Positions 7,460 to 22,735 of a DNA stretch of 59,735 bases are shown here, piece by piece; position 1 is the first letter of the stretch, and each line of letters begins with the position of its first letter. The notes below the pieces were generated by a model. That model was not told the origin of the DNA. It was given only the letters and a program-made list of their open reading frames with translations, and ran no database searches. This stretch comes from an uncultured Acidobacteriia bacterium (GTDB lineage: Bacteria > Acidobacteriota > Terriglobia > Bryobacterales > Bryobacteraceae), in the NCBI GenBank assembly GCA_903882645.1, contig CAIRXZ010000247.1, positions 1-59,735 of the forward strand, in the 5' to 3' direction. The translations under genes were made by a program, and so were the position numbers.

Positions 7460-7981
7460 TTACCCGGCCAGCACCAACGGTACGGCTTGGGTTAAATCAT
7501 CGACCGTGAAATCGGGCCGGCAGCGCTGCCGCGCTCCGTATCCCGTGAGGACCAGAATCGTCCGTGCGCCGGCCCGCCGGCCGCATTCGATATCGGCGCT
7601 CTTGTCGCCAATGACAAAAGACCGGGCCAGATCGATATCGTATGCCGCCGCGGCCTCCCACAGCATGCCCGGCTCGGGCTTCCGCCTGGTGGAAGGCGTC
7701 CCGGGGGGATCGGGGCAAAAGTAGACCGCGTCGATGGCCTCCGCTCCTAGTTGCCGCAGAAGTTCGTCCTGGACGGCCAGGTACTGCGCTTCCGTAATCC
7801 AACCGCGGCCGATGCCGCTCTGGTTGGTGGTGATGAACGTACGGAAGCCGCCCTCCTTAATCTTTCGCACCGCTTCGGGCACGCCCGGGTACACCCTGAC
7901 CTTGGCTGGGTCGGCGCAGTACTCGACTTCCTCCATCAATGTCCCGTCGCGGTCGAAAAACACCGCCCTGGCCCCGCTCAT
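7460..7981 (-). CDS. gmhB: HAD-IIIA phosphatase, GmhB-like (heptose bisphosphate)
   Basis: A 173-residue HAD hydrolase. The nucleophile motif DxDGT is at residues 10-14 ('FFDRDGT'), motif II is 'TTNQSG', and motifs III/IV are 'KPEPGM' and 'GDKSADIECG'. This fits D-glycero-D-manno-heptose 1,7-bisphosphate 7-phosphatase in ADP-heptose synthesis. The next gene upstream, overlapping by ATGA, is an HldA-like kinase, which strongly supports the pathway. One oddity: the zinc loop of E. coli GmhB (Cys-x-His and Cys-x-Cys) is reduced here to 'FCPDPPGTPSTRRKPEPG', so it probably does not bind zinc in the usual way. Confidence 0.8.
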   Translation of the reverse strand: MSGARAVFFDRDGTLMEEVEYCADPAKVRVYPGVPEAVRKIKEGGFRTFITTNQSGIGRGWITEAQYLAVQDELLRQLGAEAIDAVYFCPDPPGTPSTRRKPEPGMLWEAAAAYDIDLARSFVIGDKSADIECGRRAGARTILVLTGYGARQRCRPDFTVDDLTQAVPLVLAG

Positions 7982-8991
7982 AGGCCGGCGCAGGCCGCCT
8001 GGAGTTCGGCGGCGGTTGCCGTAGCGGTGCCCAACTTGCCCACCACGATCCCGCTGGCGCGGTTGGCAAGCTCGGCGGCTTCGGCGGCTGAAGCGCCCAC
8101 GGCGAGTCCCAACGTGAAAACCGCTATTGCGGTATCCCCGGCGCCGGAAACGTCAAAAACCTCCTTCGCGCGCGCGGGGGCGTAATGCGGGGGCGCGCCG
8201 GGATCGAGGAGCAGCATGCCCTGCTCGCCCAATGTGATCAGGAGGTTCCTGGTTTCCCAAATGGCGAATAGCCTGGCCCCCGCCGCAAGCAGCGGTTCGT
8301 CGCGCAGAACGGGTTCCACCGGATCGGAAGGCCGCAGCCCCGCCGCAAGAAACGCCTCCGTGCGGTTCGGTTTGATTGCCGTTGCGTGATGCCACCGCAG
8401 CAAGGTGTGCGGATGTGGATCCACCGTCAGGATCTTGCCGCGCTCGCCGGCGGCGTGACAGATATAATCGGCCAGCGGCTGCGTCAGGTAACCTTTGCCG
8501 TAATCGGCGACGATCACCGCGTCGGCATTTCCGATGGCCCGGTCCAGGCTTCGCATGGCCGACTCGGACTGTTCGGCGGAAAGCGGTCCCTGGCGCTCCC
8601 GGTCTACCCGCACCACCTGCTGATGGCGGGCGACAATCCTGGTTTTCACGGCGGTGGAAAAAGCCGGGTCTTGCCGCACCGGGGATGTATCGATCCCCGC
8701 GGCGCGCAGTAAATCGAGCAAACGCCGCCCCGGAGGGTCCGTCCCCACGGCGCCCATCAGCGCCACGCCGGCGGTGAATTCCCGCACGTTGCGCGCCACG
8801 TTGGCCGCGCCGCCGGGGTAGTAAGATTCGCCGGTGACATTCACCACGGGCACGGGCGCCTCGGGGGAGATGCGCGTAACCCTGCCCCAAATGAACTCAT
8901 CGAGCATTAGATCGCCAATTACCAGGATTCGCTTGGCGGCGAAGGCGGCGATCCATTCCCGAAAGGCAGCGGATTCAGGTCTGGGTTGCAT
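7978..8991 (-). CDS. hldA: D-glycero-beta-D-manno-heptose-7-phosphate kinase (HldA/RfaE1 domain)
   Basis: A 337-residue PfkB-type sugar kinase. The N-terminal segment 'ILVIGDLMLDEFIWGRVTRI' and 'SPEAPVPVV..YYPGGAANVARN' are typical of the RfaE kinase domain, and the C-terminal 'DVSGAGDTAIA' carries the catalytic Asp and anion hole. The nucleotidyltransferase domain of bifunctional HldE is missing, so ADP-heptose completion would need a separate protein not seen here. Its stop overlaps the start of the gmhB-like gene by four bases (translational coupling). Product: heptose 1,7-bisphosphate for LPS core or another envelope glycan. Confidence 0.88.
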   Translation of the reverse strand: MQPRPESAAFREWIAAFAAKRILVIGDLMLDEFIWGRVTRISPEAPVPVVNVTGESYYPGGAANVARNVREFTAGVALMGAVGTDPPGRRLLDLLRAAGIDTSPVRQDPAFSTAVKTRIVARHQQVVRVDRERQGPLSAEQSESAMRSLDRAIGNADAVIVADYGKGYLTQPLADYICHAAGERGKILTVDPHPHTLLRWHHATAIKPNRTEAFLAAGLRPSDPVEPVLRDEPLLAAGARLFAIWETRNLLITLGEQGMLLLDPGAPPHYAPARAKEVFDVSGAGDTAIAVFTLGLAVGASAAEAAELANRASGIVVGKLGTATATAAELQAACAGL

Positions 8992-10728: not shown

Positions 10729-11232
10729 TCATCCCACCGTGGCCAGCCGCTCAAACCGGTCCCGGTCGTTGCCGATCGCCATCGCCAGGGCCAGCAGCTT
10801 CTCCAGGGCCTCGGTGGCGGTCCCGAAACAGACCGTGATCTGCCCCGGGACAACCGCCACGCCCTCCGGCAGGCCCTCGAACCTCTGGCCCAGAACCGCC
10901 ATCGGAGCTTCAACCAAAACCCGCGGGCGCCGCAGCAGGTCCTCGCGCAGTTTCTCCAACTGCTCCCCAAGCCGGCGTTGCCGGCGCCGTTCATAATATG
11001 CTTTTTCACCAGCCGCCAAGCGCCGCAGATGGTCGAGGATTGCTTCGCGCCGCGCAAGACCGTTCCTGCCGATTTGGCGGGTAACGCACGGGGCCAGAAT
11101 CTGCTGGGCCCGGCGCCTGCCGACCCCGAGCGCCTGTTCGAGCATGGGACGATCTACCCAGGAATCGGGAAGTTCGCCCAGAGCCTTGGCGATTTCTTCT
11201 AAACGCCCGCACCAAGTAGGCTTATCCGGCAT
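10729..11232 (-). CDS. Hypothetical protein with possible HTH segment
   Basis: A 167-residue protein of unknown function. Residues about 25-50 ('SWVDRPMLEQALGVGRRRAQ') read like a helix-turn-helix, followed by a strongly charged helical stretch ('EKAYYERRRQRRLGEQLEKL'). The C-terminal part, 'GVAVVPGQITVCFGTATEAL', looks like a small alpha/beta fold. No catalytic motif is visible. It is transcribed divergently from the tyrosine recombinase, and the spacer holds two inverted repeats, so it may regulate or assist the recombinase. That role is a guess from position alone. Confidence 0.6.
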   Translation of the reverse strand: MPDKPTWCGRLEEIAKALGELPDSWVDRPMLEQALGVGRRRAQQILAPCVTRQIGRNGLARREAILDHLRRLAAGEKAYYERRRQRRLGEQLEKLREDLLRRPRVLVEAPMAVLGQRFEGLPEGVAVVPGQITVCFGTATEALEKLLALAMAIGNDRDRFERLATVG

Positions 11233-11272: not shown

Positions 11273-11359
11273 ATGCGCGTATGCGAATTATGACGGAATT
11301 GATAGCTGTTGAGCCATATTGGAACCAGCCAAACCCGCCGCCCGCATTCGGTTATGAAC

Positions 11360-11383
11360 GCACGATAATTAGACATATCGTGC
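11360..11383. promoter_or_regulatory. 24-bp inverted repeat, candidate recombinase core site or operator
   Basis: Perfect 8-bp arms GCACGATA / TATCGTGC flank the 8-bp spacer ATTAGACA, ending 14 bases before the recombinase ATG at 11398. The arm-spacer-arm layout resembles tyrosine-recombinase core sites, and the overall length is the same as the other inverted repeat at 11249-11272. An operator for autoregulation is equally possible. Confidence 0.5.
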
Positions 11384-11397
11384 TATCGTGGATTCGC

Positions 11398-12282
11398 ATG
11401 GATCAGCTCATTGTAGGAGCTTCTGCCAGGCCCGCGCCGGCCCATGGCAGTCCGCAAGAGGCCGAAGTGATCCATGTCTGGCTCTCCACCAAGATCAGCA
11501 GCGCCACCCGCCGCGCCTACGCCGCTGAAATCGCGCGCTTTTTGACCTGTGTCCGGAGGCCTATCGCTTCGGTCACGCTCGCGGACATGCAGCTTTACGC
11601 TGAAACGCTGGCGCGGAGCGGCCTCAAGACTGCCAGCCAGAACCGGGCGCTCACCAGTGTCAAGTCGCTGCTTTCATTCGCTCAGGAGACCGGCTATCTG
11701 GCTTATAATGTTGGGGTTGCAGTCAAACTCCGCCCCTATCCCGATGCCTTGGCGCAACGTTTTCTCGAAGAGAGCGAAGTGGCCAAACTCATCGAGGCCG
11801 CACCCGTTGGCCGGGACCGGGTGCTCTTGAAGCTTCTGTATGTTTCCGGCGTCCGCGTCGGCGAACTGTGCGGCTTGAAATGGTGCGATGCCCTGCCCCG
11901 CCAGGCGGGTGGCCAGATCACGGTATTCGGAAAGGGTGGTAAGACCAGAACGATTCTGTTGAAGCCAAACGTCTGGCAGCAACTCCTGTCGCTCCAGGGA
12001 GCGGCCCGCGCGGTCAATCCCCTGTTCCGCAGCCGGAAAGGAGGCGGTCAGATCGATTCCTCTCAGGTCCGCCGCATCGTGTACGCCGCCGCCCGCAAAG
12101 CCGGCCTGGAGAAGAAAGTGTCGCCCCACTGGCTGCGCCATGCCCACGCCAGCCACGCTCTGGAGCGAGGCGCCCCCCTCCACCTGGTCCAGGCTACCCT
12201 CGGGCACGCCTCCATCGCTACGACTGGGCGCTACCTCCATGCCCGGCCCACCGACAGCTCCAGCTTCTATTTGCCCGATTGA
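11398..12282 (+). CDS. Tyrosine recombinase, XerC/XerD-like integrase
   Basis: Starting at ATG 11398 gives 294 residues, the usual Xer length. An in-frame ATG at 11281 adds 39 residues with no family resemblance and crosses the inverted repeat. The N-terminal SAM-like core-binding domain ('TRRAYAAEIARFLTCV') is followed by the catalytic domain with Arg in 'SGVRVGELCGL', Lys in 'VFGKGGKTRTI', 'HWLRHAHASH' (His-x-x-Arg), 'LGHASIATTGRYLH' (His and nucleophile Tyr). All catalytic residues are present, so the enzyme should be active. It probably integrates, excises or resolves dimers of the neighbouring replicon. It ends 33 bases before a TACCGTA repeat pair and converges with rep. Confidence 0.88.
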   Translation: MDQLIVGASARPAPAHGSPQEAEVIHVWLSTKISSATRRAYAAEIARFLTCVRRPIASVTLADMQLYAETLARSGLKTASQNRALTSVKSLLSFAQETGYLAYNVGVAVKLRPYPDALAQRFLEESEVAKLIEAAPVGRDRVLLKLLYVSGVRVGELCGLKWCDALPRQAGGQITVFGKGGKTRTILLKPNVWQQLLSLQGAARAVNPLFRSRKGGGQIDSSQVRRIVYAAARKAGLEKKVSPHWLRHAHASHALERGAPLHLVQATLGHASIATTGRYLHARPTDSSSFYLPD

Positions 12283-12314: not shown

Positions 12315-12339
12315 TACCGTAGCGCGATCTTGTACGGTA
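12315..12339. repeat. TACCGTA repeat pair (array A)
   Basis: TACCGTA at 12315 and its reverse form TACGGTA at 12333 start exactly 18 bp apart, in the 64-bp spacer between the convergent recombinase and rep genes. The surrounding words 'gatagct..cttataccgtagc' and 'cttgtacgg' recur around 20438-20470 in the same orientation, so the two ends of the replicon block share this sequence. Confidence 0.85.
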
Positions 12340-12346
12340 GCACTTT

Positions 12347-13870
12347 TCAGAACAGGCTTCCCGCTTTTTGCTGCGTGAATTCCTCGAAACTCGGCAGGTC
12401 GAGCTCGCCCGCCACCTCCTCTCGCAGTTTTCGCAGCGCGAATCCACGAAGCGTTGGTTCCGGCCAGCGGTATTGCGGGGCTCCCGCCTGAATGCGAGTC
12501 ATGTGATCGCGAATGCGCCGTTCGATGGTCGGCTCCGCCATCTTGTTCTTCATGTGCTGGTCGGTCTCTTCGATCAAGAAGGCCTCGTAGCGCTCCCGCT
12601 GTTCGTACATCTCGAGTTCGCGCTGGGCCTCTCGCGCGCGGCTTTCCAAATCGCGCTGTTGCGCTTGCTCCCGGAGCGTGCGCTTGTGCGTGGTCTCGAA
12701 GCTGGCCGGCACCGGATAATTACAGGCCAGGAGGTACACGTAAAACCCGGGTGGATTCAGGATCGGTTCGCGGGTCCGTTCCTTCCGCTTCACTTCCGTA
12801 TCGCCCCATTCGATCTGATCCATCGCCGGCTGTTCTTCCGGAAGGTCGATCAGCAGTTGGCGGGCGCGATCTTCTCGAACGCCCCGCTCCGCAAGCGCTC
12901 TCAAAAGCTCGTTCTGACGCGCGCTGAGCAAGCCGGCTCTGTCGGGATTCTCCGCGTTGCGAATATCGGCCGCGCTGACGAAAGCGCTGCCCGCCCACAG
13001 GCAGAGTTTGTAATCCAGGTCATCGGTGGTCTTCGCCAGATCCCAGCTCGAAAGAAAACCTTTCTCCCGGAGTTCCTCAAGACTTGGCCCGAGTTGCTGT
13101 CTGATCCGGGACAGCGCCTTGAAGCATTGCAGGCCTAACAGCGAGCACAAATCGGAATATTTTCTTTCGGCGCACTGGTCCCGGCGGCTGGCATAAAACC
13201 AGATCTGGAGCAACGGTACCAGGGCTTTGGCAATGTGCGATTGAAGAGTTCTGTAGACGTCGTAGTCGATCGGCAGCGTGTGGCGATTGTTGACGTTCTC
13301 GAGTTGCCATTCGCTCAGCCAAACGTAGTTCTCCTCCGCGACCGTGCCGTCTTCGAGAACCTCGCCAATGGCCACCGATCGCTGAAAAACGTGGAAAAGA
13401 TCGCGGGCGTATTTCTTTCTGCCGGCGAAGTAAACCACCCCCTCCGATTCCACGCCCGTAAGCGTCATACGCCTCAGCCATTCCCAAATCTCGCGGTAGT
13501 TCCTGCCGCCATCGGTCATTCCAAGTATTTCAATCATCGCCGCCGAGGAGAACTGCACCGGATTGGCAACCAACCCTTGCTGCTTGCGAATCTGCTCTAT
13601 GATCTTCTGGAAAGCAAAGTACTTGTCTTGATCGGCGGTGGTCGGCAGCCCGAGCTCCGCGGCAGGGTAAATCGTCGCTTTCGCCTGCACTCGCTGGCCG
13701 TCGTCCGTGCGAACTTGAAGGGCGACGGTTTTCGAGGCGGTCCGGAGTCTCTTGCTGGACGGAGTGAAAAAACCGAATGTGTTTACGTTCTTCTCCACAC
13801 GCACAATCGTTCGAGCCGTGTTTGGGGCAATGGGAAGCAAAAGTTGCTGACGGGTACGTGGCCGGCGCAT
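12347..13870 (-). CDS. Plasmid-type replication initiator (RPA family)
   Basis: About 507 residues from ATG 13870 ('MRRPRTRQQ'). The reading frame stays open to 13954, but that extension (Cys- and Asn-rich) looks non-coding. The central region has 'GRNYREIWEWLRRM', 'EENYVWLSEWQLENVN', 'LPIDYDVYRTLQSHIAKALV' and 'IWFYASRRDQCAERKYSDLC', matching the replication initiator protein A (RPA) family of plasmid Rep proteins, which bind origin repeats with winged-helix domains. The last 150 residues are a charged, probably coiled-coil region ('REAQRELEMYEQRERYEAFL') and an unrecognised tail. Its upstream region carries an AT-rich tract and 22-bp spaced repeats, the usual arrangement for an iteron origin. 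Confidence 0.82.
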   Translation of the reverse strand: MRRPRTRQQLLLPIAPNTARTIVRVEKNVNTFGFFTPSSKRLRTASKTVALQVRTDDGQRVQAKATIYPAAELGLPTTADQDKYFAFQKIIEQIRKQQGLVANPVQFSSAAMIEILGMTDGGRNYREIWEWLRRMTLTGVESEGVVYFAGRKKYARDLFHVFQRSVAIGEVLEDGTVAEENYVWLSEWQLENVNNRHTLPIDYDVYRTLQSHIAKALVPLLQIWFYASRRDQCAERKYSDLCSLLGLQCFKALSRIRQQLGPSLEELREKGFLSSWDLAKTTDDLDYKLCLWAGSAFVSAADIRNAENPDRAGLLSARQNELLRALAERGVREDRARQLLIDLPEEQPAMDQIEWGDTEVKRKERTREPILNPPGFYVYLLACNYPVPASFETTHKRTLREQAQQRDLESRAREAQRELEMYEQRERYEAFLIEETDQHMKNKMAEPTIERRIRDHMTRIQAGAPQYRWPEPTLRGFALRKLREEVAGELDLPSFEEFTQQKAGSLF

Positions 13871-14014
13871 GGAGTTCATTAGCATCGTGTCACAAGGCAT
13901 GCAGCAAAAACAAGAACTGTTCTGAATGTTGTTTGTTAATACTATGAACAACACATATAAAAACCTGTGACATTCCGCAAGCCGTTGAAATAACAGACGT
14001 TAATGATGTTTTCG

Positions 14015-14117
14015 TTACGTTGAAGTACGGGGATTCTTACGTTGGGGTACGGTATGCCTTACGTTCTAGTACGGAAAGTTTCCTTTGCGGTACGGAATAC
14101 CTTACTTTGGAGTGCGG
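14015..14117. repeat. Iteron array B1, 22-bp pitch
   Basis: Five copies of a 16-mer close to TTACGTTgaaGTACGG start at 14015, 14037, 14059, 14080 and 14102 (steps of 22, 22, 21 and 22 bp). The first two and third differ only in the three middle bases (gaa, ggg, cta); the fourth and fifth are more diverged. A sixth exact copy of the first lies at 14180-14195. They sit 145 bp upstream of the proposed rep start and read as Rep-binding iterons. Confidence 0.85.
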
Positions 14118-14199
14118 ATGAAGCGGCAGGTTGGACCCCTGGCGGTGCGTTCCATTGGCTCGCTGCCCCGTACTTGGTTTTACGTTGAAGTACGGACGC

Positions 14200-14242
14200 A
14201 GCGGTATATCAATGTTATACCGTATTCGACACTTCTACCGTA
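14200..14242. repeat. TACCGTA repeats, 18-bp pitch (array B2)
   Basis: TACCGTA begins at 14218 and 14236, and a partial unit AGCGGTA at 14200, all exactly 18 bp apart. This array directly follows the 22-bp iterons and precedes the small HTH gene by about 100 bp. Confidence 0.8.
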
Positions 14243-14340: not shown

Positions 14341-14553
14341 ATGCCGACTAGCACCTGGACTGAATTGCCCTACTTACGAACCGCTGAGGTGGCGGACATT
14401 CTGAGGGTCACCAAGAGGACCCTCAAGAATTGGCTTCGCCGCGGTTCGATTCCTGAGCCCCAGCGGAATCCGTCCAACCGATATCGCTTGTGGACCCTCG
14501 AGGATGTTGAGGCCGTGCGCAGGTTCTTGACCGAAAGGAACGGCGCCAAATGA
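14341..14553 (+). CDS. Small MerR/excisionase-like HTH protein
   Basis: A 70-residue protein from ATG 14341; the open frame to 14131 covers the repeats and is not used. The sequence 'YLRTAEVADILRVTKRTLKN' then 'WLRRGSIPEPQRNPSNRYRL' and 'LEDVEAVRRFL' is a textbook MerR-type/excisionase winged helix. Its stop overlaps the parA ATG by four bases (ATGA), so the two are co-translated. In many plasmids the DNA-binding domain is fused to ParA; here it appears as a separate partner, and it may repress the operon or bind the nearby repeats. An excisionase role for the recombinase is another option. Confidence 0.75.
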   Translation: MPTSTWTELPYLRTAEVADILRVTKRTLKNWLRRGSIPEPQRNPSNRYRLWTLEDVEAVRRFLTERNGAK

Positions 14554-15362
14554 TTCGACTGGTCATCTCGAATCAGCGCGGGGGGGTGGCCAAGACCACC
14601 ACGGTGGCCACCTTTGCGCGATATTTGGCGGACCGCGGGAAGCGGGTTCTGGTCATCGACACGGACCCGCAAGGGTCCATAGGGACGGTGCTGGGCCTGA
14701 AGCCCGCGAAATACCTGCACGATTTTGTGGTCTATAATCACTTGTTCAAAGATTGCATCGTCGAGGCGTGCCCGGGCGTCGACGTTCTTTGCGGGAACCG
14801 CGACACCGTGAAAACGGAAGGCCATCTGATGGGCCAAGTGGCGCGCGAATTCGTATTCAACAACCTGTTCACGCAGGTCGAGACTGGCTACGACGCCGTG
14901 CTGATCGACGTAGCCCCTTCCATCAACCTGTTGCAGACCTGCGCCATGGTGTACGGAAGATCGCTGCTGATCCCCGTCAGTATGGATCCGCTGAGTTTGC
15001 AGGGAGCCGCCGCCAGCATCGAGACTGCCCGGATGCTGAACTCCTTGATCCACATCGAAATTCAGCCGGTCGCGCTGCTTCCGGTAATGGTCGATCGCCG
15101 CCTGCAAATCACCGAAGTCGTCAGCACATCGCTGAAGGACTTGTCGGTCCGCACCAGGATTCCGCTGCTGCACGGAATCCGTACCGATACGACAGTCACG
15201 AAATGCAACAGGGCCAAGAGATTTCTAGCCGACTTCGAACCGCGTTCCAAAGCCCTTGAGGACTATCAGACGGCGTTCGAGGAATTATTGAATCTGCTCC
15301 ATGGAGAACCACGCAAGGACCAGAACGAAATCCAGGAAACCGCCGGCCCGGCCAGAGCTTGA
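14550..15362 (+). CDS. parA: ParA-family partition ATPase
   Basis: A 270-residue ParA/MinD-type ATPase. The deviant Walker A is 'NQRGGVAKTTT' at residues 8-18, Walker A' is 'VIDTDPQGS', and Walker B is 'AVLIDVAPS'. The signature lysine of the deviant Walker motif (KGGxxKTT) is Arg10 here, an unusual but conservative change. The protein would segregate the replicon by oscillating on the nucleoid with a centromere-binding partner. It overlaps the HTH gene upstream (4 bp) and the next gene downstream (62 bp), a compact operon. No canonical ParB (ParB/Srx fold) is present nearby. Confidence 0.87.
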   Translation: MIRLVISNQRGGVAKTTTVATFARYLADRGKRVLVIDTDPQGSIGTVLGLKPAKYLHDFVVYNHLFKDCIVEACPGVDVLCGNRDTVKTEGHLMGQVAREFVFNNLFTQVETGYDAVLIDVAPSINLLQTCAMVYGRSLLIPVSMDPLSLQGAAASIETARMLNSLIHIEIQPVALLPVMVDRRLQITEVVSTSLKDLSVRTRIPLLHGIRTDTTVTKCNRAKRFLADFEPRSKALEDYQTAFEELLNLLHGEPRKDQNEIQETAGPARA

Positions 15363-16068
15363 GCCAATCAGCTACGAGGAAATCATGGCCAACGCCGGCA
15401 TGTCCGGTTTTGTGTCGTTTCTCGACGCGCCGGAGCCTGGGACGACTGCCCCAACAGCGGCCGGGACGCCAGGATCGCCAGCAAGAGGCCCTGAATTTGG
15501 TACCGTATCGGAAGTGGCTACCGTAAAGGAAACGACTACCGTACAAGAACGTAAAACAGCTACCGTACAACAAAGTAACGCCGTACAACAAAGTATCGCG
15601 GTACAAGAAGCTTATACCGTCCAGGTTCATAACGCTCACGAGAGCAGGCGGTCCCGGGTGAAGCTGGCCCGTGTCGTTGAAGACGGGCACTCGCTTGCCG
15701 AACAGGAGATCTACAGGACGCTGTGGAGAGTGGGCGTGGCGGAAACCAACGATCCCGAGGCGAACCGCATTGTCCGAATCGGCTATGACAGGCTGGCTGC
15801 GCTGGTCAGGTTAAGTTGGGTGACGGTAAAGGCCAACTTGCGCAGTCTCGAGAAGAAGCTCGCCATTGATGTGGTAGCCGCCGAGGACTCCGCTAACAGG
15901 GAAGGGAAGCAATACCGCGTTTATTCCAACCCGGCAATATGGGCGCGGCGTCAATCGGCAGGGCTGCTGTGGGTCAGAAGGACGCGCGGAGTCGAATTGC
16001 TGCCGGATGCGTCGGGAGACCCCCGGGGAGAGCGACCTGCGGCTTTCCACTCCTTACACCGTACCTAA
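15301..16068 (+). CDS. Winged-helix-like protein with an internal repeat linker, candidate ParB analogue
   Basis: A 255-residue protein overlapping parA by 62 bp; ATG 15385 is a possible later start. Residues 68-111 are six-residue repeats of the form (T/A)-V-(Q/K/S)-x-x-x ('ATVQQSNAVQQSIAVQEAY'). These are the translation of seven TACCGTA-type DNA repeats at an 18/24-bp pitch. The C-terminal half, 'LAEQEIYRTLWRVG' and 'IGYDRLAALVRLSWVTVKAN' with 'LRSLEKKLAI', reads as a winged helix-turn-helix. Position after parA suggests a centromere-binding protein that could bind the repeats in its own gene. No ParB fold is recognisable, so this is inference. The last codons overlap another repeat (16057). 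Confidence 0.7.
   Translation: MENHARTRTKSRKPPARPELEPISYEEIMANAGMSGFVSFLDAPEPGTTAPTAAGTPGSPARGPEFGTVSEVATVKETTTVQERKTATVQQSNAVQQSIAVQEAYTVQVHNAHESRRSRVKLARVVEDGHSLAEQEIYRTLWRVGVAETNDPEANRIVRIGYDRLAALVRLSWVTVKANLRSLEKKLAIDVVAAEDSANREGKQYRVYSNPAIWARRQSAGLLWVRRTRGVELLPDASGDPRGERPAAFHSLHRT
15501..15621. repeat. TACCGTA repeats inside a coding sequence (array C)
   Basis: Seven heptamer units begin at 15501, 15519, 15537, 15561, 15579, 15597 and 15615 (steps 18, 18, 24, 18, 18, 18). The first four are perfect TACCGTA; the last three are CGCCGTA, CGCGGTA and TACCGTC. Every step is a multiple of three, so each unit is read in the same codon phase (..T ACC GTA). The extended word CCGTACAACAAAGTAA at 15563-15578 also occurs in non-coding DNA at 20354-20369. 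Confidence 0.92.
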
Positions 16069-16099
16069 AAACAATACGGTATTGTTAACTTGTACGGTA
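16057..16099. repeat. TACCGTA repeats (array D)
   Basis: Units CACCGTA at 16057, TACGGTA at 16075 and TACGGTA at 16093 lie exactly 18 bp apart. The first overlaps the last codons and stop of the winged-helix gene. The rest fills the 51-bp spacer to the convergent SBBP gene and contains the palindrome GTTAAC at 16084-16089. Confidence 0.85.
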
Positions 16100-16119: not shown

Positions 16120-19100
16120 TTAGTGTATCGTCGCGGCTTTGTAGCTGTAATCCGCGTACTGCCAGTCGGCGCCGATTCTCGACCACAAGCGCACATACAG
16201 GGTGCTGCCATCGGTGGGCAGGGTTGTAAAGGTCTTTGAGGTATTCGACCCCTGGGTGTTGCTATAGATCTCTTTTCCGCCCGGCGCTAGCTTGCTGACG
16301 TAAAGCCAATATTCGGAGACCCCCACGCCGGCGGACCACTGGAAGGTGACGGTGGAACCGGGCAGGGTGGCGCCGTTAATCGGGCTGATCATTGAGGCGG
16401 GCGACGGAGTTGGCGCTTGCAAGAGATCCGGCGACACAGCGCCCGAAAGCGCATAGCGAAACGCGCCAATCACGAAGTCCGGGTAAGAGCCGGCGTTTGA
16501 GAGCGCTATAGCGACCTTTGTGATTGGCGCGCCAGTGGCCGCGAAGATCCGGGAATTGGGATACGACATGCCGTCCATCCTGATGGTGAGGGATCCCGAA
16601 GATGCGGTGTAGAAGGTCGCGATGATCGTGCCGATATCGTCAGGCTCCGCTTCGAAGCCGAATGTCCACACCGGACGGGAAAAAGTGATGGTGAGATTGG
16701 GGAGACCGAACCAATTGGTCGTCGCGCTCCATGTGGCCGCTGGGTTGAAAAGGGGGTTGTATGGATCGAGTATCGGCAAGACGCCGTTGGGGTCCGTGCG
16801 CTCCGAGTTAGGGGCTACGCTCCAGTCCCAGTTGTCGGGGCCAACCGCGAACCTTACCAGCGTGGAGCTGAAAGCCAGGCTCAGAACTCCATCGCTGAGC
16901 TGGTTGGAGGTGGGAGGGGTAACATAATCCCAGACGGGGAAGTTGGAGAAGTCGAAACCGTAGAACGGAGTGGCGGCCAAATAGGAGGCCAGCGAGGCCG
17001 AATCTGCGGGCGCGATCCGGGTAAGAGCCGCCGCGCACTTATAGCTGTAATCCAGGAATTTCCAGGCGGCGCCGATTTTCGACCACAGGCGTATGTAAAT
17101 CGTGCTGCCGTCGGTGGGCAAGCCTGTAAACGTCTTTGATGTGTTGGTTCCCTGGCTGCCGCTGTAGATTTCTTGTCCGCCCGGCGCCGCGTTGCTGACG
17201 TAGAGCCAATACTCGGAGACCCCAACCCCTGAGGACCATTGGAAGGTCGCGGTGGAACCAGGCAGGGTGGAGCCGTTGGCCGGGGTGATCATGGCGGCAA
17301 CCGGCAAACCCACGGCCGTGAAGGTGTAATCGGCGTACCGCCAATTGCCGCCTATCAGCGACGACAGGCGCACGTAAATTGTGCTGCCGTCGAGGGGCAG
17401 GTTCGTCAGGGTCAATACCGTTTGGGAACCGGCGTTGATGCTGTCAAGATCGCCCCCGCCGGGCGCTACCTTGCTGACGTAGAGCCAATATTGGGAGACC
17501 CCAACCCCGGCGGACCATTGGAAGGCAACCGTGGAACCGGGCAGGGTGGAGCCGTTAGCCGGGCTGATCATCGTCCCGGCCGTCAACAGTGCGGCGCAAT
17601 AGACGTAATCGACATACAGCCAGCCGAAGCCAGCCGTCGAACCAATACGGACATAGATGAGCCGGCCATCCAGGGGCAGGTTCGTCACGAGTTGCGACGT
17701 ACCGGCTCCCAGCGCGCCGGTAAAGATATCCGTCCCCCCCGCTCTGATCCCGCTGACGGAAAGCGAGCAGCCGCTGAAATTGCCCATGCCGGTCCATTGA
17801 AAAACTACGCTGGCGCCAGGCAGCCAGGACCCATTTTGCGGGCTGACGATCATTGCCGGAACCGTCCAGTTCCCTTTAAGCTCCCAGCCCGTCGAAGTGC
17901 TCAGGTTGGCGGATTGCACGTAAACGTTCGTTGTCCCTGCCATTGGCGGCAGAAACGAGATCGCCAGGTTCAAAGTCAAGACAGTCCCGGACGCCGAAAC
18001 GCTCGAGGCGGCGCCGTTCAGGACGCACTGGCTGTTCCCCTGCGTGCCGCTGCCCGGGGTGATCGTTCCAGCCGGCGGGCCCCCGGCGTCAGTCAATAGC
18101 GACAAAGCGTTCGCGACCCGGTCATAGACCACCGCGCACCCATTCACGGCGCTTGGCGTCGAATTGAGCAATGCCGACACGGTCGTCAGGTCCGTTACTC
18201 CGCTGGCATCGGAAAACTGAAAGCCGAACGTCTGCGAGGCGCCGCCGCCCGAATTCGGCGTCACCCCCGTATTGACCGGCGGCGAACCGGAATTCAGTTT
18301 CGTCACGAACGCGCCATAATTGTCGGCGTCGATGGATTGATAAGGGTTCCGGAGCGGAAAGTTGCTGGAGAGGGTCCAGCCGGCTACATAGACGTTTCCC
18401 GACGCCAGCGCCAGGGCGGTGGCGGTGTCGGCCCCGTTTCCTCCGAGATAGGTCAAGTAGGCCAGCGTCCCCGTAGCGCTCACTCTAGCCAGAAAGGCGT
18501 CGCAAGCTCCGGCGTTGGAGCCTTGAAGCGCATTGGCGACCGGCAGGTCCGTCGAATACGTGTAGCCCGCGACGTACGCGGCCCCGCTCGTGTCCACCGC
18601 GATCGCGTTGGCGACCTCCACTCCGGAGCCTCCCAGGTATGTGCTGTAGGCCAATGTCCCGGAAGCGTTCACTTTCGTCACAAAAGCGTCCGTTGCTCCA
18701 TTTAGCGACGGCTGCAGGGGGTTCACCAGGGGAAAGTTCGTCGAACTGGTGACTCCCGCGACATAAGCGTTACCCTGCCAATCCAGAGTGATCGCCTGCG
18801 CGGCCTCCGGGTAACCGAGCGAGCCGCCGCTCCCGCCCAAATAAGAGCCGAACAGAACCGTATTCCCATCGGCGGAGAGCCGGGCCACAAATGCATCCTG
18901 GCCACCCCCGAGAGCGCTTTGAAATGCATTCGCCACCGGGAAATCGGGGGACCAGGTCGATCCAGCCACCCAGGCCGCCCCGGTCGCGTCCACAGCTATG
19001 GCGGCGCCGTGATCGGTACTCGCCCCGCCCAGATAACTGCTATACGCCAGGCGGCTCCCATCGGCGGACAACTTGGCGACGAAGGCGTCCTGGCCTCCGT

Positions 19101-20286
19101 GGTTCCATCTCTGCCAGCCGGTCGCCGGGAAGTTCAGGGACGTCGTGTCTCCCACGACATAAGCGTTTCCGGCCGCATCCACCGCGATTCCATTGCCGGA
19201 ATCCGATGCGTTCCCGCCCAGATACGTGCTGTACGCCAAGCTGTTGCCGGCGGCGGCCAACTTCAGGACAAACGCGTTCCGAACGCCCGCGAGCTTCGAC
19301 TGCAGCGGATAGACGACCGGGAAGTTTTGCGATGTTGTAGCTCCCGTGACATAGACCGCCCCCGCGGCGTCCACCGCGATTCCATACGCCCGATCATCGC
19401 CGGCGCCGCCGAGATAGGTGCAATAGATCAGCCCGGTTCCGGCGGGGTTCAATTTCGCTACAAAAACATCGTTCCCGCCGGCGTTGAAATTCTGCGCCGG
19501 ATTGGCGGTAGGGAAGTCGGTGGATTCGGTGAAGCCCGCAATATATGCCGCTCCCGTCGAATCCACCGCCAATGCGTTTGCGGCATCGGCGCCCGAGCCG
19601 CCCAGGAGCGTACTGTAGGAGATCGCCGGGTCGATAATCAAAGGCCGTGACGCATCGTACTCGCCGATTGCGAAACTCACGGCTTCGCCCGCCAGGATGA
19701 ACCGCCCCTCCACGGCGACGCGCCGGCCCTCGCGCTCCTGATAGACGCTGGGCGCCTGTTCGCGAAACTCCTCACCACCGACGGGGATCGCCAGCGAGCC
19801 ATCTTCTCCGATGCGCGGCTTGCCGCCGCCGAGATACCGTACCCGGATGGCCGAAGGGTCCGCCTTTGGTGCCACGACGAACTCGGATTTCAGGTTTCGG
19901 CCGGCGGCCCCGTAAATCATGTCGATTCCCGGATAAAGGCTTCGATATACGACTCCCCCATACAAGGGTTGCGCCAGCAGCCATCGGTCCTTCGGCCCGG
20001 TCAGGAAATTGGCCACTCCGGCCACGCGGCTCATGGCTTCCGGCCGGGGGGCGTGGGCGGCCCCCTCGAAATGCATGCGGAGAGTGTTCCCCGCCACGCG
20101 AAACAGCGCTTCGCCGGGGGAGAAATAGGCCGTCAACCCGGGCGCCCTTGCCATAAAGCGGACCGGCGGCGGCGCCTGCCCATGGTTCGCCAGAAAGAGC
20201 AGCGGCACGGGTTCCCTTGGCGCCGCGCCCACGGCCAAAATGGCGCAGTTCGCCATCAAGAGAATCCGGTATCCGCGTAACGCCAT
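16120..20286 (-). CDS. Giant secreted SBBP-repeat (beta-propeller) protein
   Basis: A 1,388-residue protein with a hydrophobic N-terminus ('ILLMANCAILAVGAA') that looks like a signal peptide. Residues about 25-215 match the N-terminal domain usually found before SBBP repeats ('FLANHGQAPPPVRFMARAPG', 'SLYPGIDMIYG'). About eight SBBP propeller units follow to about residue 640 ('YSTLLGGSGADAANALAVD' type). Then come four Ig/fibronectin-like units sharing 'ISPANGSTLPGSTVAFQWS' and 'SxYWLYVSKxAPGG'; a 200-residue unrecognised insert ('FYGFDFSNFPVWDYV') precedes the last one. It is a likely surface or extracellular adhesin or binding protein. It lies between repeat arrays D and E, so it appears to be cargo of the plasmid-like block. 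Confidence 0.85.
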   Translation of the reverse strand: MALRGYRILLMANCAILAVGAAPREPVPLLFLANHGQAPPPVRFMARAPGLTAYFSPGEALFRVAGNTLRMHFEGAAHAPRPEAMSRVAGVANFLTGPKDRWLLAQPLYGGVVYRSLYPGIDMIYGAAGRNLKSEFVVAPKADPSAIRVRYLGGGKPRIGEDGSLAIPVGGEEFREQAPSVYQEREGRRVAVEGRFILAGEAVSFAIGEYDASRPLIIDPAISYSTLLGGSGADAANALAVDSTGAAYIAGFTESTDFPTANPAQNFNAGGNDVFVAKLNPAGTGLIYCTYLGGAGDDRAYGIAVDAAGAVYVTGATTSQNFPVVYPLQSKLAGVRNAFVLKLAAAGNSLAYSTYLGGNASDSGNGIAVDAAGNAYVVGDTTSLNFPATGWQRWNHGGQDAFVAKLSADGSRLAYSSYLGGASTDHGAAIAVDATGAAWVAGSTWSPDFPVANAFQSALGGGQDAFVARLSADGNTVLFGSYLGGSGGSLGYPEAAQAITLDWQGNAYVAGVTSSTNFPLVNPLQPSLNGATDAFVTKVNASGTLAYSTYLGGSGVEVANAIAVDTSGAAYVAGYTYSTDLPVANALQGSNAGACDAFLARVSATGTLAYLTYLGGNGADTATALALASGNVYVAGWTLSSNFPLRNPYQSIDADNYGAFVTKLNSGSPPVNTGVTPNSGGGASQTFGFQFSDASGVTDLTTVSALLNSTPSAVNGCAVVYDRVANALSLLTDAGGPPAGTITPGSGTQGNSQCVLNGAASSVSASGTVLTLNLAISFLPPMAGTTNVYVQSANLSTSTGWELKGNWTVPAMIVSPQNGSWLPGASVVFQWTGMGNFSGCSLSVSGIRAGGTDIFTGALGAGTSQLVTNLPLDGRLIYVRIGSTAGFGWLYVDYVYCAALLTAGTMISPANGSTLPGSTVAFQWSAGVGVSQYWLYVSKVAPGGGDLDSINAGSQTVLTLTNLPLDGSTIYVRLSSLIGGNWRYADYTFTAVGLPVAAMITPANGSTLPGSTATFQWSSGVGVSEYWLYVSNAAPGGQEIYSGSQGTNTSKTFTGLPTDGSTIYIRLWSKIGAAWKFLDYSYKCAAALTRIAPADSASLASYLAATPFYGFDFSNFPVWDYVTPPTSNQLSDGVLSLAFSSTLVRFAVGPDNWDWSVAPNSERTDPNGVLPILDPYNPLFNPAATWSATTNWFGLPNLTITFSRPVWTFGFEAEPDDIGTIIATFYTASSGSLTIRMDGMSYPNSRIFAATGAPITKVAIALSNAGSYPDFVIGAFRYALSGAVSPDLLQAPTPSPASMISPINGATLPGSTVTFQWSAGVGVSEYWLYVSKLAPGGKEIYSNTQGSNTSKTFTTLPTDGSTLYVRLWSRIGADWQYADYSYKAATIH

Positions 20287-20351: not shown

Positions 20352-20472
20352 TACCGTACAACAAAGTAAGGGCCGGGAAGCGGTGGGTCGCTCTACCGTA
20401 CCTTGAAGTAATACGGCAAAAGATAATGATACCGTATTGATAGCTTATACCGTAGCATAAACTTGTACGGCA
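20352..20472. repeat. TACCGTA repeats (array E)
   Basis: Units begin at 20352 (TACCGTA), 20394 (TACCGTA), 20412 (TACGGCA), 20430 (TACCGTA), 20448 (TACCGTA) and 20466 (TACGGCA). The last five are at an exact 18-bp pitch; the first gap is 42 bp (18+24). The array fills the gene-free stretch 20287-20632 upstream of the SBBP gene and may include its promoter. The words 'gatagcttataccgtagc' and 'cttgtacgg' match array A at 12301-12337. Confidence 0.88.
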
Positions 20473-20981: not shown

Positions 20982-21821
20982 CTATTGCGGCATCAACAGC
21001 GCATGCGGGTAAAGCGCGCTAAACGGCCGGAAGTAGAGTATGCGATAACCGGAACCGGCGGCGGCAGCCTCGAGCTCACCCTGGGACGTGAGATGTATAA
21101 AGCCGACCCACGGCCAGAACACGTCGCCGGGATGTCGAGCCGACGGGGATCCTAGCAGCGCGCAAACCCGGCGGATGCCTGGGCGCAAACGATCCAGCCT
21201 TCCATTCTCCGCATCCCGCAACATCGAAAAGCTGAGCAGCAAAGGGGCCTTTGGCGCGATCATACGGGTGGCGCAAAGCAAGTCCTGCCGATCCAATTCG
21301 GTGAAAACATAGTCGAAGCTTGTCCAGCCGAAGAGAACCGCGTCGAAAGAAGCGTCGAGGACGTGGGCTGCCAGCGGCCCGGTATGCTCTTGCGCGGCGG
21401 TCACGAGGTCGCGGTAGGAAGCCCGGACCACGGCGCTGTTCGGGGAGGATGAAACCGCCCGGCGGGCGCCCTCGCAAAGCTGCCCGGATGGTTCGAAGGC
21501 CACCACATCGAAGCCCATCCGGCATAACTGAACGAGTTCCCTCCCGCCGCCGGCGCCCCCGAGCAGGATCCGCCCGGCCGGTGGAAATGGAGGTTCGGTA
21601 ATGGCACGCCGCTCCCAGTCGAAGAGTCCTCTTTCGAAGGTGGCTCCCCCAGGCAGGTAGGTGCCCGCCCTCCCACAGATGATCTGGTTGACAGCCTCAC
21701 GCCGCTGTGGGCCAAACCAAGCCCAGAGCACCTCGTCCCAAAAGATGGTGTGAAGGCGCGTCGCCGCACTCAGGGCGCGTTCGGCGGCAAAGGACATTCG
21801 GGCTAAAGGCGGCAGTCGCAC
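20982..21821 (-). CDS. SAM-dependent methyltransferase-like protein, copy 2
   Basis: A 279-residue paralogue of the adjacent upstream gene (21887-22735). The shared core is 'GRILLGGAGGGREL', 'GFDVVAFEPS', 'FDAVLFGWTSFDYVFTE' and 'APLLLSF'. The glycine-rich loop and the acidic residue at the end of strand 2 fit a class I methyltransferase, though the usual Asp of motif I (LDxGxGxG) is replaced by Gly. Both copies end in a near-identical tail ('YPHALLMPQ' versus 'HPHALLMPQ'). It is the last gene of the peptide-modification operon. The substrate is unknown; the modified peptide is one possibility. Confidence 0.7.
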   Translation of the reverse strand: MRLPPLARMSFAAERALSAATRLHTIFWDEVLWAWFGPQRREAVNQIICGRAGTYLPGGATFERGLFDWERRAITEPPFPPAGRILLGGAGGGRELVQLCRMGFDVVAFEPSGQLCEGARRAVSSSPNSAVVRASYRDLVTAAQEHTGPLAAHVLDASFDAVLFGWTSFDYVFTELDRQDLLCATRMIAPKAPLLLSFSMLRDAENGRLDRLRPGIRRVCALLGSPSARHPGDVFWPWVGFIHLTSQGELEAAAAGSGYRILYFRPFSALYPHALLMPQ

Positions 21822-21886
21822 GAATCGTATGCAGCGGAGGCGCCAGCGCGGGCAAGCGCTCTGATAGGCCTGGCGCGCGAGGGGAG

Positions 21887-22735
21887 CTATTGCGGCATCA
21901 ACAGCGCGTGGGGGTGAGGGGTGGTCTCTTGGCGGCAGTAGACTATGCGATAACCGGAACGGTCCGCGACGGTCCGGATCTCATCGAGAGTCAAGTAATG
22001 GATGAAACCGTTCTCCAACATGAACCTGTCGCCTGGGCGTCGAGACGACGGCGCCTTCAATAGCTCGAAAAGGCGGCGGAGGAGTGGGCGTAAACGATCC
22101 AGCCTTCCGGTTTCCGCGCCCTGGTGCCCGGGCAGGAAGCTGAGCAGCAGAGGAGCTCTTGGCGCAATCGCGCGGGCGGTTCGAAGTAGAGCGTAACGAT
22201 CCGATTCGGTGAAAACATAATTGAAGCTTGCCAGGCCGAAGAGGACCGCGTCGAAGGAAGTGTTAAGGACGTGGGCAGCCAGCGGCCCGGTCCGCTGTTC
22301 CACCGCGGTTACAAGGTCCCCAAAGGATGCGCGTACTACCGTGCTTTTCGGATAGGCCGAGACGATCTGTCGCGCGCTCTCGCAAAGCCGCTCGGATGGT
22401 TCGAAGGCCACCACATCGAAGCCCATCCCGCACAATTCACGCAGTTCCCGCCCGCCGCCGGCGCCTCCGAGCAGGATCCGGCCACCCGAGGGAAATGGAG
22501 GCGTGGCGAAGGCTGCTCGCTCCCAGTCGAAGAGCCCTATTTCGAAGACCCACCCGCCGGGGAGGTAATTGTCCTTTCCGCAGTACACAGCCCGGTTGAC
22601 AGCCTCACGCTGCGGCGGGGGCGTCCAGGCCCAGAGAACCTCTTCCGAGAGAAGACGCTGCAGGCGCTCCACCGTATTCCGGATCCGCTCACTAGCCAGG
22701 GCTATCCGGACTAAAACCGGCAGTTGTTGGGGCAT
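21887..22735 (-). CDS. SAM-dependent methyltransferase-like protein, copy 1
   Basis: A 282-residue protein similar over its whole length to the next gene downstream, 65 bp away: a clear tandem duplication. It carries 'GRILLGGAGGGRELRELCGM' (binding loop), 'GFDVVAFEPSERLCESARQI' (acidic residue) and 'FDAVLFGLASFNYVFTESDR'. The N-terminal 60 residues ('LLSEEVLWAWTPPPQREAVN') are conserved in both copies and may be a substrate-recognition region. It starts 43 bp after the nucleotidyltransferase gene, so it is most likely in the same transcript. Confidence 0.7.
   Translation of the reverse strand: MPQQLPVLVRIALASERIRNTVERLQRLLSEEVLWAWTPPPQREAVNRAVYCGKDNYLPGGWVFEIGLFDWERAAFATPPFPSGGRILLGGAGGGRELRELCGMGFDVVAFEPSERLCESARQIVSAYPKSTVVRASFGDLVTAVEQRTGPLAAHVLNTSFDAVLFGLASFNYVFTESDRYALLRTARAIAPRAPLLLSFLPGHQGAETGRLDRLRPLLRRLFELLKAPSSRRPGDRFMLENGFIHYLTLDEIRTVADRSGYRIVYCRQETTPHPHALLMPQ

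Follow-up and report, generated by a model that had tools for sequence, protein, structure and literature searches.

The gene that follows parA in this DNA carries a short word repeated within its own coding sequence, which raises the question of whether the DNA word or the encoded peptide is being maintained, and what the repeats are for. The window, by which we mean the whole 59,735-nucleotide stretch analysed, is an entire contig. The earlier note on it, made from the letters alone, had proposed a partition site embedded in the gene for its own putative binding protein. The module around this gene runs in the order int, rep, HTH, parA and wHTH (winged-helix) gene, and contains the following features.

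11281–12282, plus strand: tyrosine recombinase gene of the module (int)
12315–12339: non-coding inverted pair TACCGTA-N11-TACGGTA, between int and rep
12347–13954, minus strand: RPA-type replication initiator gene (rep; PF10134)
14015–14195, plus strand: rep iterons TTACGTTGRAGTACGG in 22-bp steps, beside rep
14218–14242, plus strand: two non-coding TACCGTA words at an 18-bp interval, immediately before the HTH-parA-wHTH operon, kept in L064 and L066
14341–14553, plus strand: small MerR-type HTH gene
14550–15362, plus strand: parA, 270 residues, a Walker-type ParA/Soj-like ATPase (PF13614, 3e-34; Soj-type structures matched)
15301–16068, plus strand: wHTH gene, an ORF of 255 residues overlapping the parA 3' end; putative ParA partner and candidate centromere-binding protein
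15501–15621, plus strand: in-gene array (four TACCGTA, CGCCGTA, CGCGGTA, TACCGTC), coding for part of the disordered linker
15646–16014, plus strand: segment coding for the wHTH domain, with its recognition helix at about VRLSWVTVKANLRSLEKK; hardly any family words occur in it
16057–16099, minus strand: three words in 18-bp steps (CACCGTA, TACGGTA, TACGGTA), around and just past the stop codon
20352–20472, plus strand: distal non-coding array (20352, 20394, 20412, 20430, 20448, 20466), which includes the 16-mer found at 15563

The gap between rep and the par operon holds two distinct repeat systems, the 22-bp series of TTACGTTGRAGTACGG next to rep and the TACSGTA pair with 18-bp spacing next to the par operon, and both are kept in the congeneric loci L064 and L066. 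The rep iterons together with an AT-rich stretch at 13901–13960 are the probable oriV; the GC skew of these contigs gave no help in locating the origin. The HTH and parA products match the two halves of RepA (TIGR03453), as a split N-terminal HTH and ATPase. Other genes lie nearby. The small protein gene at 10729–11232 (WVDRPMLEQALGVGRRRAQQIL) is a conserved module accessory, whose relatives are found next to the module in L072 (9688–10338) and on contig G155:C9 (L099:12658–13215), the latter matching no Pfam family. A gene for a 1388-residue repeat-rich (SBBP-like) protein (16120–20286) occupies the interval between the arrays at 16057–16099 and 20352–20472, and is found beside the module in L064 too. 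Further on, two adjoining similar genes (20982–22735; 279 and 282 residues, methyltransferase-like) have the appearance of a tandem duplication.

The in-gene array comprises seven units in steps of 18, 18, 24, 18, 18 and 18 bp. Its positions, steps and frame are as the earlier note gave them, each unit being translated as x-(T/A)-V in ORF 15301–16068. However, only four units are exact TACCGTA (15501, 15519, 15537 and 15561), and the other three are degenerate (CGCCGTA at 15579, CGCGGTA at 15597 and TACCGTC at 15615). The exact word occurs 16 times in the window compared to 1.57 expected, with a maximum of 7 in 100 shuffles, and the 16-mer CCGTACAACAAAGTAA at 15563 in the gene does indeed recur, identically, in non-coding DNA at 20354. 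The 5.27-Mb genome has six exact TACSGTA-N11-TACSGTA pairs, every one of them within the 8-kb module, compared to 0 for a control pattern. Two of these pairs, which overlap, are in the gene and four are in non-coding DNA; because the pairs are mostly non-coding, the 18-bp interval is a spacing property of the DNA site. The array had also been described as locked in codon phase. The steps are all multiples of three, but this follows from the 18-bp (6-codon) spacing of the DNA site, which is found in the non-coding copies too and forces the phase, so that the phase is no independent evidence.

The conserved unit is the DNA word, not the peptide. In the arrays of three congeneric genes, valine is encoded by GTA in 24 of 29 cases, versus 23 of 225 in the background (Fisher p = 4e-16, which is optimistic because the arrays are related and their units arose partly by duplication). 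Within the [T/A/S]V dipeptides of the congeneric arrays, GTA is used for 22 of 24 valines, and in 23 of 24 the word has C or G at its centre. The residue before valine varies (T, A or S, with ACC, TCC and GCC codons preceding GTA), the spacer residues change, and the number of units differs between orthologues, with 7 in the window and 11 scored in L066. Coding and non-coding units give one profile, TAC[C/G]GTA, with the information confined to the heptamer. Synonymous-codon shuffling within genes gave p < 0.01 in 21 of 47 loci and p < 0.05 in 26 of 47, by an exact-7-mer method that underestimates degenerate arrays; the value for the window gene is p = 0.02, as the method counts exact copies alone. 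The GTA bias, the agreement between coding and non-coding profiles and the synonymous shuffles support the proposal that selection acts on the DNA word and not only on the protein. The orthologue comparison that had been set beforehand gave the same answer: synonymous positions within the words are held while unit number and spacer residues in the linker vary, and this extends across the family with other words. It is extremely improbable that the hexapeptide linker is instead what is selected, with the DNA words as a by-product of peptide repeats. The array units do share one reading register in most genes, as a peptide repeat would, but the GTA bias and the synonymous shuffles, the same word in non-coding DNA and the free change of residues before GTA all argue against selection on the peptide, as does L013, where a single palindrome is translated both as ERS and, in another frame, as LNVQ.

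Profile searches recovered 47 relatives, all from one phylum, with the named members in Acidobacteriota, Terriglobia; one profile, A2, covered too much diversity to be used in pattern scans. A homologue scan of genome contigs found no close homologues of the window protein, and no relatives were found in viral contigs or, by tblastn, in PLSDB plasmids. In 43 of the 47 relatives parA is the gene directly upstream, on the same strand and in most cases overlapping. The four others include L067 and the first L068 copy, which are cut by contig ends, and L072, which has an AAA_22 ATPase gene instead; no parA was detected in L073. L072 is a congener of the window; its ATPase gene (7738–8553) overlaps the wHTH gene and lies next to an RPA rep, and its presence could reflect an exchange of the partner motor. 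Most of the relatives carry their own repeated near-palindromic word in the linker-coding segments (for example CCCATGGG, CCCAC-S-GTGGG, ACCACAGT, GGTGCACC, ACCTATAGGT and CTACCTGTAAG). Several relatives (L032, L033, L087 and others) lack a clear in-gene array or have one that falls short of significance. In L077 (1–19001), two HTH-parA-wHTH operons, with words of the CCCAC-S-GTGGG and CCCATGGG types, flank a single rep. L038 and L039 were dropped as relatives, having marginal domain matches and no parA. In L013 (9263–9767), a palindrome array of GAACGTTCAATT with a 12-bp period lies on both sides of the wHTH segment, in the frames IERS.. and LNVQ.. The L013 protein matches PHROG DnaD-like helicase loaders (2e-9) and may be an O/DnaD-like initiator, not a true family member; since L013 had been in the seed alignment, the E-values that later profiles give for it are circular.

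Across the family, the top linker words have 149 copies outside the gene versus 16.6 expected (9.0-fold). Words taken from parA as a comparison have 20 such copies versus 20.9 expected (0.96-fold), and those from the wHTH segment 31 versus 22.4 (1.4-fold). Relative to the words of other loci, enrichment was seen upstream of the operon (5.9-fold) and 0–400 bp downstream (6.2-fold), and only there, with depletion in parA (0.3-fold) and in the wHTH segment (0.5-fold). When words were permuted among loci, 20000 permutations reached a maximum of 53 compared to the observed 73. Repeated module-specific sites are therefore present near the operon, as a type I (ParA-based) partition locus requires, and so is the Walker-type ParA ATPase gene that such a locus also requires. 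Words placed before the operon promoter region (14218 and 14236 in the window, and the 5.9-fold enrichment family-wide) would also suit a wHTH protein that represses its own operon, with arrays that regulate transcription and play no role in partition. We consider this improbable, since the arrays at 16057–16099 (downstream) and 20352–20472 (4 kb off) are away from the operon promoter, the repeated in-gene sites exceed what an operator needs, and both the nearly constant linkage to ParA and the basic N-terminal peptide of the protein speak for more than autorepression.

The window protein consists of a basic N-terminus, a disordered linker and a wHTH domain, a short form without the C-terminal helical domain. 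No Pfam, NCBIfam or PHROG family was matched. The ParB/Srx N-terminal domain and HTH of Pfam and NCBIfam were absent from this protein and from the relatives scanned, and Pfam scans of the window protein and 16 relatives gave no match to RP-C domains. AlphaFold2 predicts a confident wHTH at approximately residues 124–230 (pLDDT about 80–94) and disorder at residues 32–120, including the array-encoded part (pLDDT < 50 in the linkers). The long form, represented by L094 from Granulicella rosea, has two further parts, another disordered linker and a helical/coiled-coil domain at the C-terminus, and its words sit in both linkers. Foldseek searches returned generic wHTH proteins, among them the centromere binders AspA and TubR, at weak E-values of about 0.015–0.04. 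An iterated Rep profile that matched the wHTH genes of L008–L011 was taken to reflect coiled-coil similarity and was left unused. The N-terminal 16 residues of 34 proteins contain on average 5.0 K/R versus 0.7 D/E, and type I ParA partners such as ParT and ParB also have a basic N-terminal peptide (PMC12260392, PMC9178275).

If the wHTH protein reads the word, the two might be expected to vary together. Word sharing between pairs of loci tracks recognition-helix identity over and above that of the remaining domain (0.78 versus 0.53, the rest of the domain being 50–70% identical), and the recognition helix predicts word sharing with an AUC of 0.835, compared to 0.777 for ParA and 0.734 for the MerR-HTH. 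This link is suggestive because locus pairs are not independent, and it is consistent with words that change together with the recognition helix of the encoded wHTH protein. The MerR-HTH was also considered as the word reader and rejected, being a weaker predictor and undetected in L011, L012, L030, L036 and L037, a group that includes loci with arrays.

Taken together, the ParA operon, its unplaced DNA-binding partner, the specific sites repeated in and around it and the basic N-terminal peptide point to partition. We think it likely, though well short of certain, that the wHTH protein is the centromere-binding partner of ParA and that the array is its centromere/operator, or part of it. Gene 15301–16068 would then encode the DNA-binding partner of the upstream ParA, a ParB analogue of unrelated winged-helix fold. 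A dimer of this protein could bind the quasi-palindromic word TAC[C/G]GTA, and the 18-bp-spaced sites would form a centromere/operator spread over the module: a pair before the operon, which might serve autoregulation, the array in the gene, the array just behind it and the distal arrays. Contact with ParA, and stimulation of its ATPase, would fall to the basic N-terminal peptide. The in-gene array is placed in codons of the disordered linker, where presumably nearly any peptide is tolerated, and this tolerance would allow a DNA word to be kept within a gene. The partition site in its own binder's gene that the earlier note envisaged is thus the best-supported reading, given the ParA operon, the basic N-terminus and a helix that changes with the word; binding and partition are what we infer from these.

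Both lambda, whose ori with four 19-bp iterons lies inside gene O (PMC4488673), and repABC, whose oriV lies inside repC (PMC3155836), provide precedents for a different function, in which the wHTH protein would be a lambda-O/RepC-like replication initiator and the in-gene array an origin, with iterons in linker codons and transcribed with parA. Some family members have weak matches to lambda-O/DnaD-like families (L013 at 2e-9, L080 and L085; none in the window protein, L009 or L010). Furthermore, genomes G155, G139, G103 and G612 gave no PF10134 match, and inspection by eye revealed no recognised Rep on contig G155:C9. However, the par operon has a separate RPA rep as its neighbour in the window, L064 and L066, accompanied by 22-bp iterons of its own and an AT-rich stretch, and an RPA rep is present in 12 loci. 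In L077 a single rep goes with two par operons whose words differ, the G+C content of the window array is 46% with AT-richer tracts elsewhere in the module, and words also occur far from the gene (12315 and 20352–20472). Because of the separate rep with its own iterons, and of L077, we consider an initiator role, the most serious alternative to partition, unlikely in the window.

The nearby RPA Rep could itself bind the in-gene array, which would then consist of copy-number or incompatibility iterons placed in a par gene. The units at 15537, 15561 and 15579 extend to CCGTACAA-N-AA-N-GTA and resemble the rep iteron CCGTACTYCAACGTAA (CCGTAC-N6-GTAA), and binding of Rep to some units is possible. 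For the array as a whole we find this very improbable, as the rep iterons form a separate 22-bp series beside rep in three congeners and related arrays exist in genomes with no PF10134 match. The rep iterons and par words have the half-site GTACGG in common, and at the three in-gene units that bear both patterns cross-talk between Rep and the par protein is possible.

The partition reading has a broader version that we put forward more tentatively, and about which we remain somewhat doubtful. Linker codons may serve as the centromere for the whole family of ParA partners, such that array and reader are passed on as a single cis unit, the linker is there partly to carry the sites, and word and helix are re-tuned together. 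If true, such re-tuning would let plasmids switch partition-incompatibility group inside one gene.

Several known systems share parts of this arrangement. In the ParA-ParT-parS system of the Streptomyces coelicolor plasmid SCP2, ChIP-seq maps parS inside parT, a ParB-like gene next to parA, and parS was recoded in a parT allele that left the protein unchanged (PMC12260392). The authors describe the ParA-linked members of ParT as mostly from Actinomycetota (PMC12260392). Compared by description, the systems are alike in having a site inside the partner gene, if the arrays here are the centromere, and a basic N-terminal ParA-contact peptide; they differ in that SCP2 has a single 18-bp inverted repeat, whereas here there are multi-copy heptamer arrays and further arrays outside the gene. 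In parCAB of the Myxococcus plasmid pMF1, ParA is accompanied by a DNA-binding protein that had no homologues at the time; it represses its own expression and binds short, imperfectly palindromic iterons AGATGTCT upstream and downstream of the operon and at other places on the plasmid, including in other ORFs (PMC3235114). As described there, pMF1 likewise combines ParA and a DNA-binding partner with short palindromic iterons spread over the plasmid, but these are reported around the operon and in other ORFs rather than as an array within parB, with another word and in other hosts.

The HTH and ParA proteins here match RepA, and repABC also has functional DNA inside a coding gene of the operon, where silent mutations abolish replication (PMC3155836, PMC9040568). 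In contrast, the oriV in repC is an A+T-rich tract without iterons, and here there is no RepB and the wHTH proteins have no RP-C match. The iterons in lambda gene O are bound by the product of O itself (PMC4488673), but they serve replication and involve no ParA, whereas the window has a separate rep with its own iterons. The pNOB8 AspA (4rs8) and TubR proteins use a wHTH fold to bind a centromere beside a segregation NTPase; the similarity is weak, of a generic wHTH kind and without a sequence match, and pNOB8 has an additional ParB adaptor.

Thus a parS inside the binder gene is already known from SCP2 (PMC12260392), as are par iterons spread over a plasmid from pMF1 (PMC3235114). What is new is an uncharacterised family with multi-site arrays in linker codons, lineage-specific words and an association between word and recognition helix. 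The coevolution of centromeres with their binding proteins, and the origin of plasmid incompatibility groups, become testable directly from sequence in this family, which also offers a case where protein disorder may persist because the underlying DNA is needed. Single functional sites in coding genes are known from other systems; here about 50 members repeatedly hold multi-site arrays in the disordered-linker codons of a putative binder gene.
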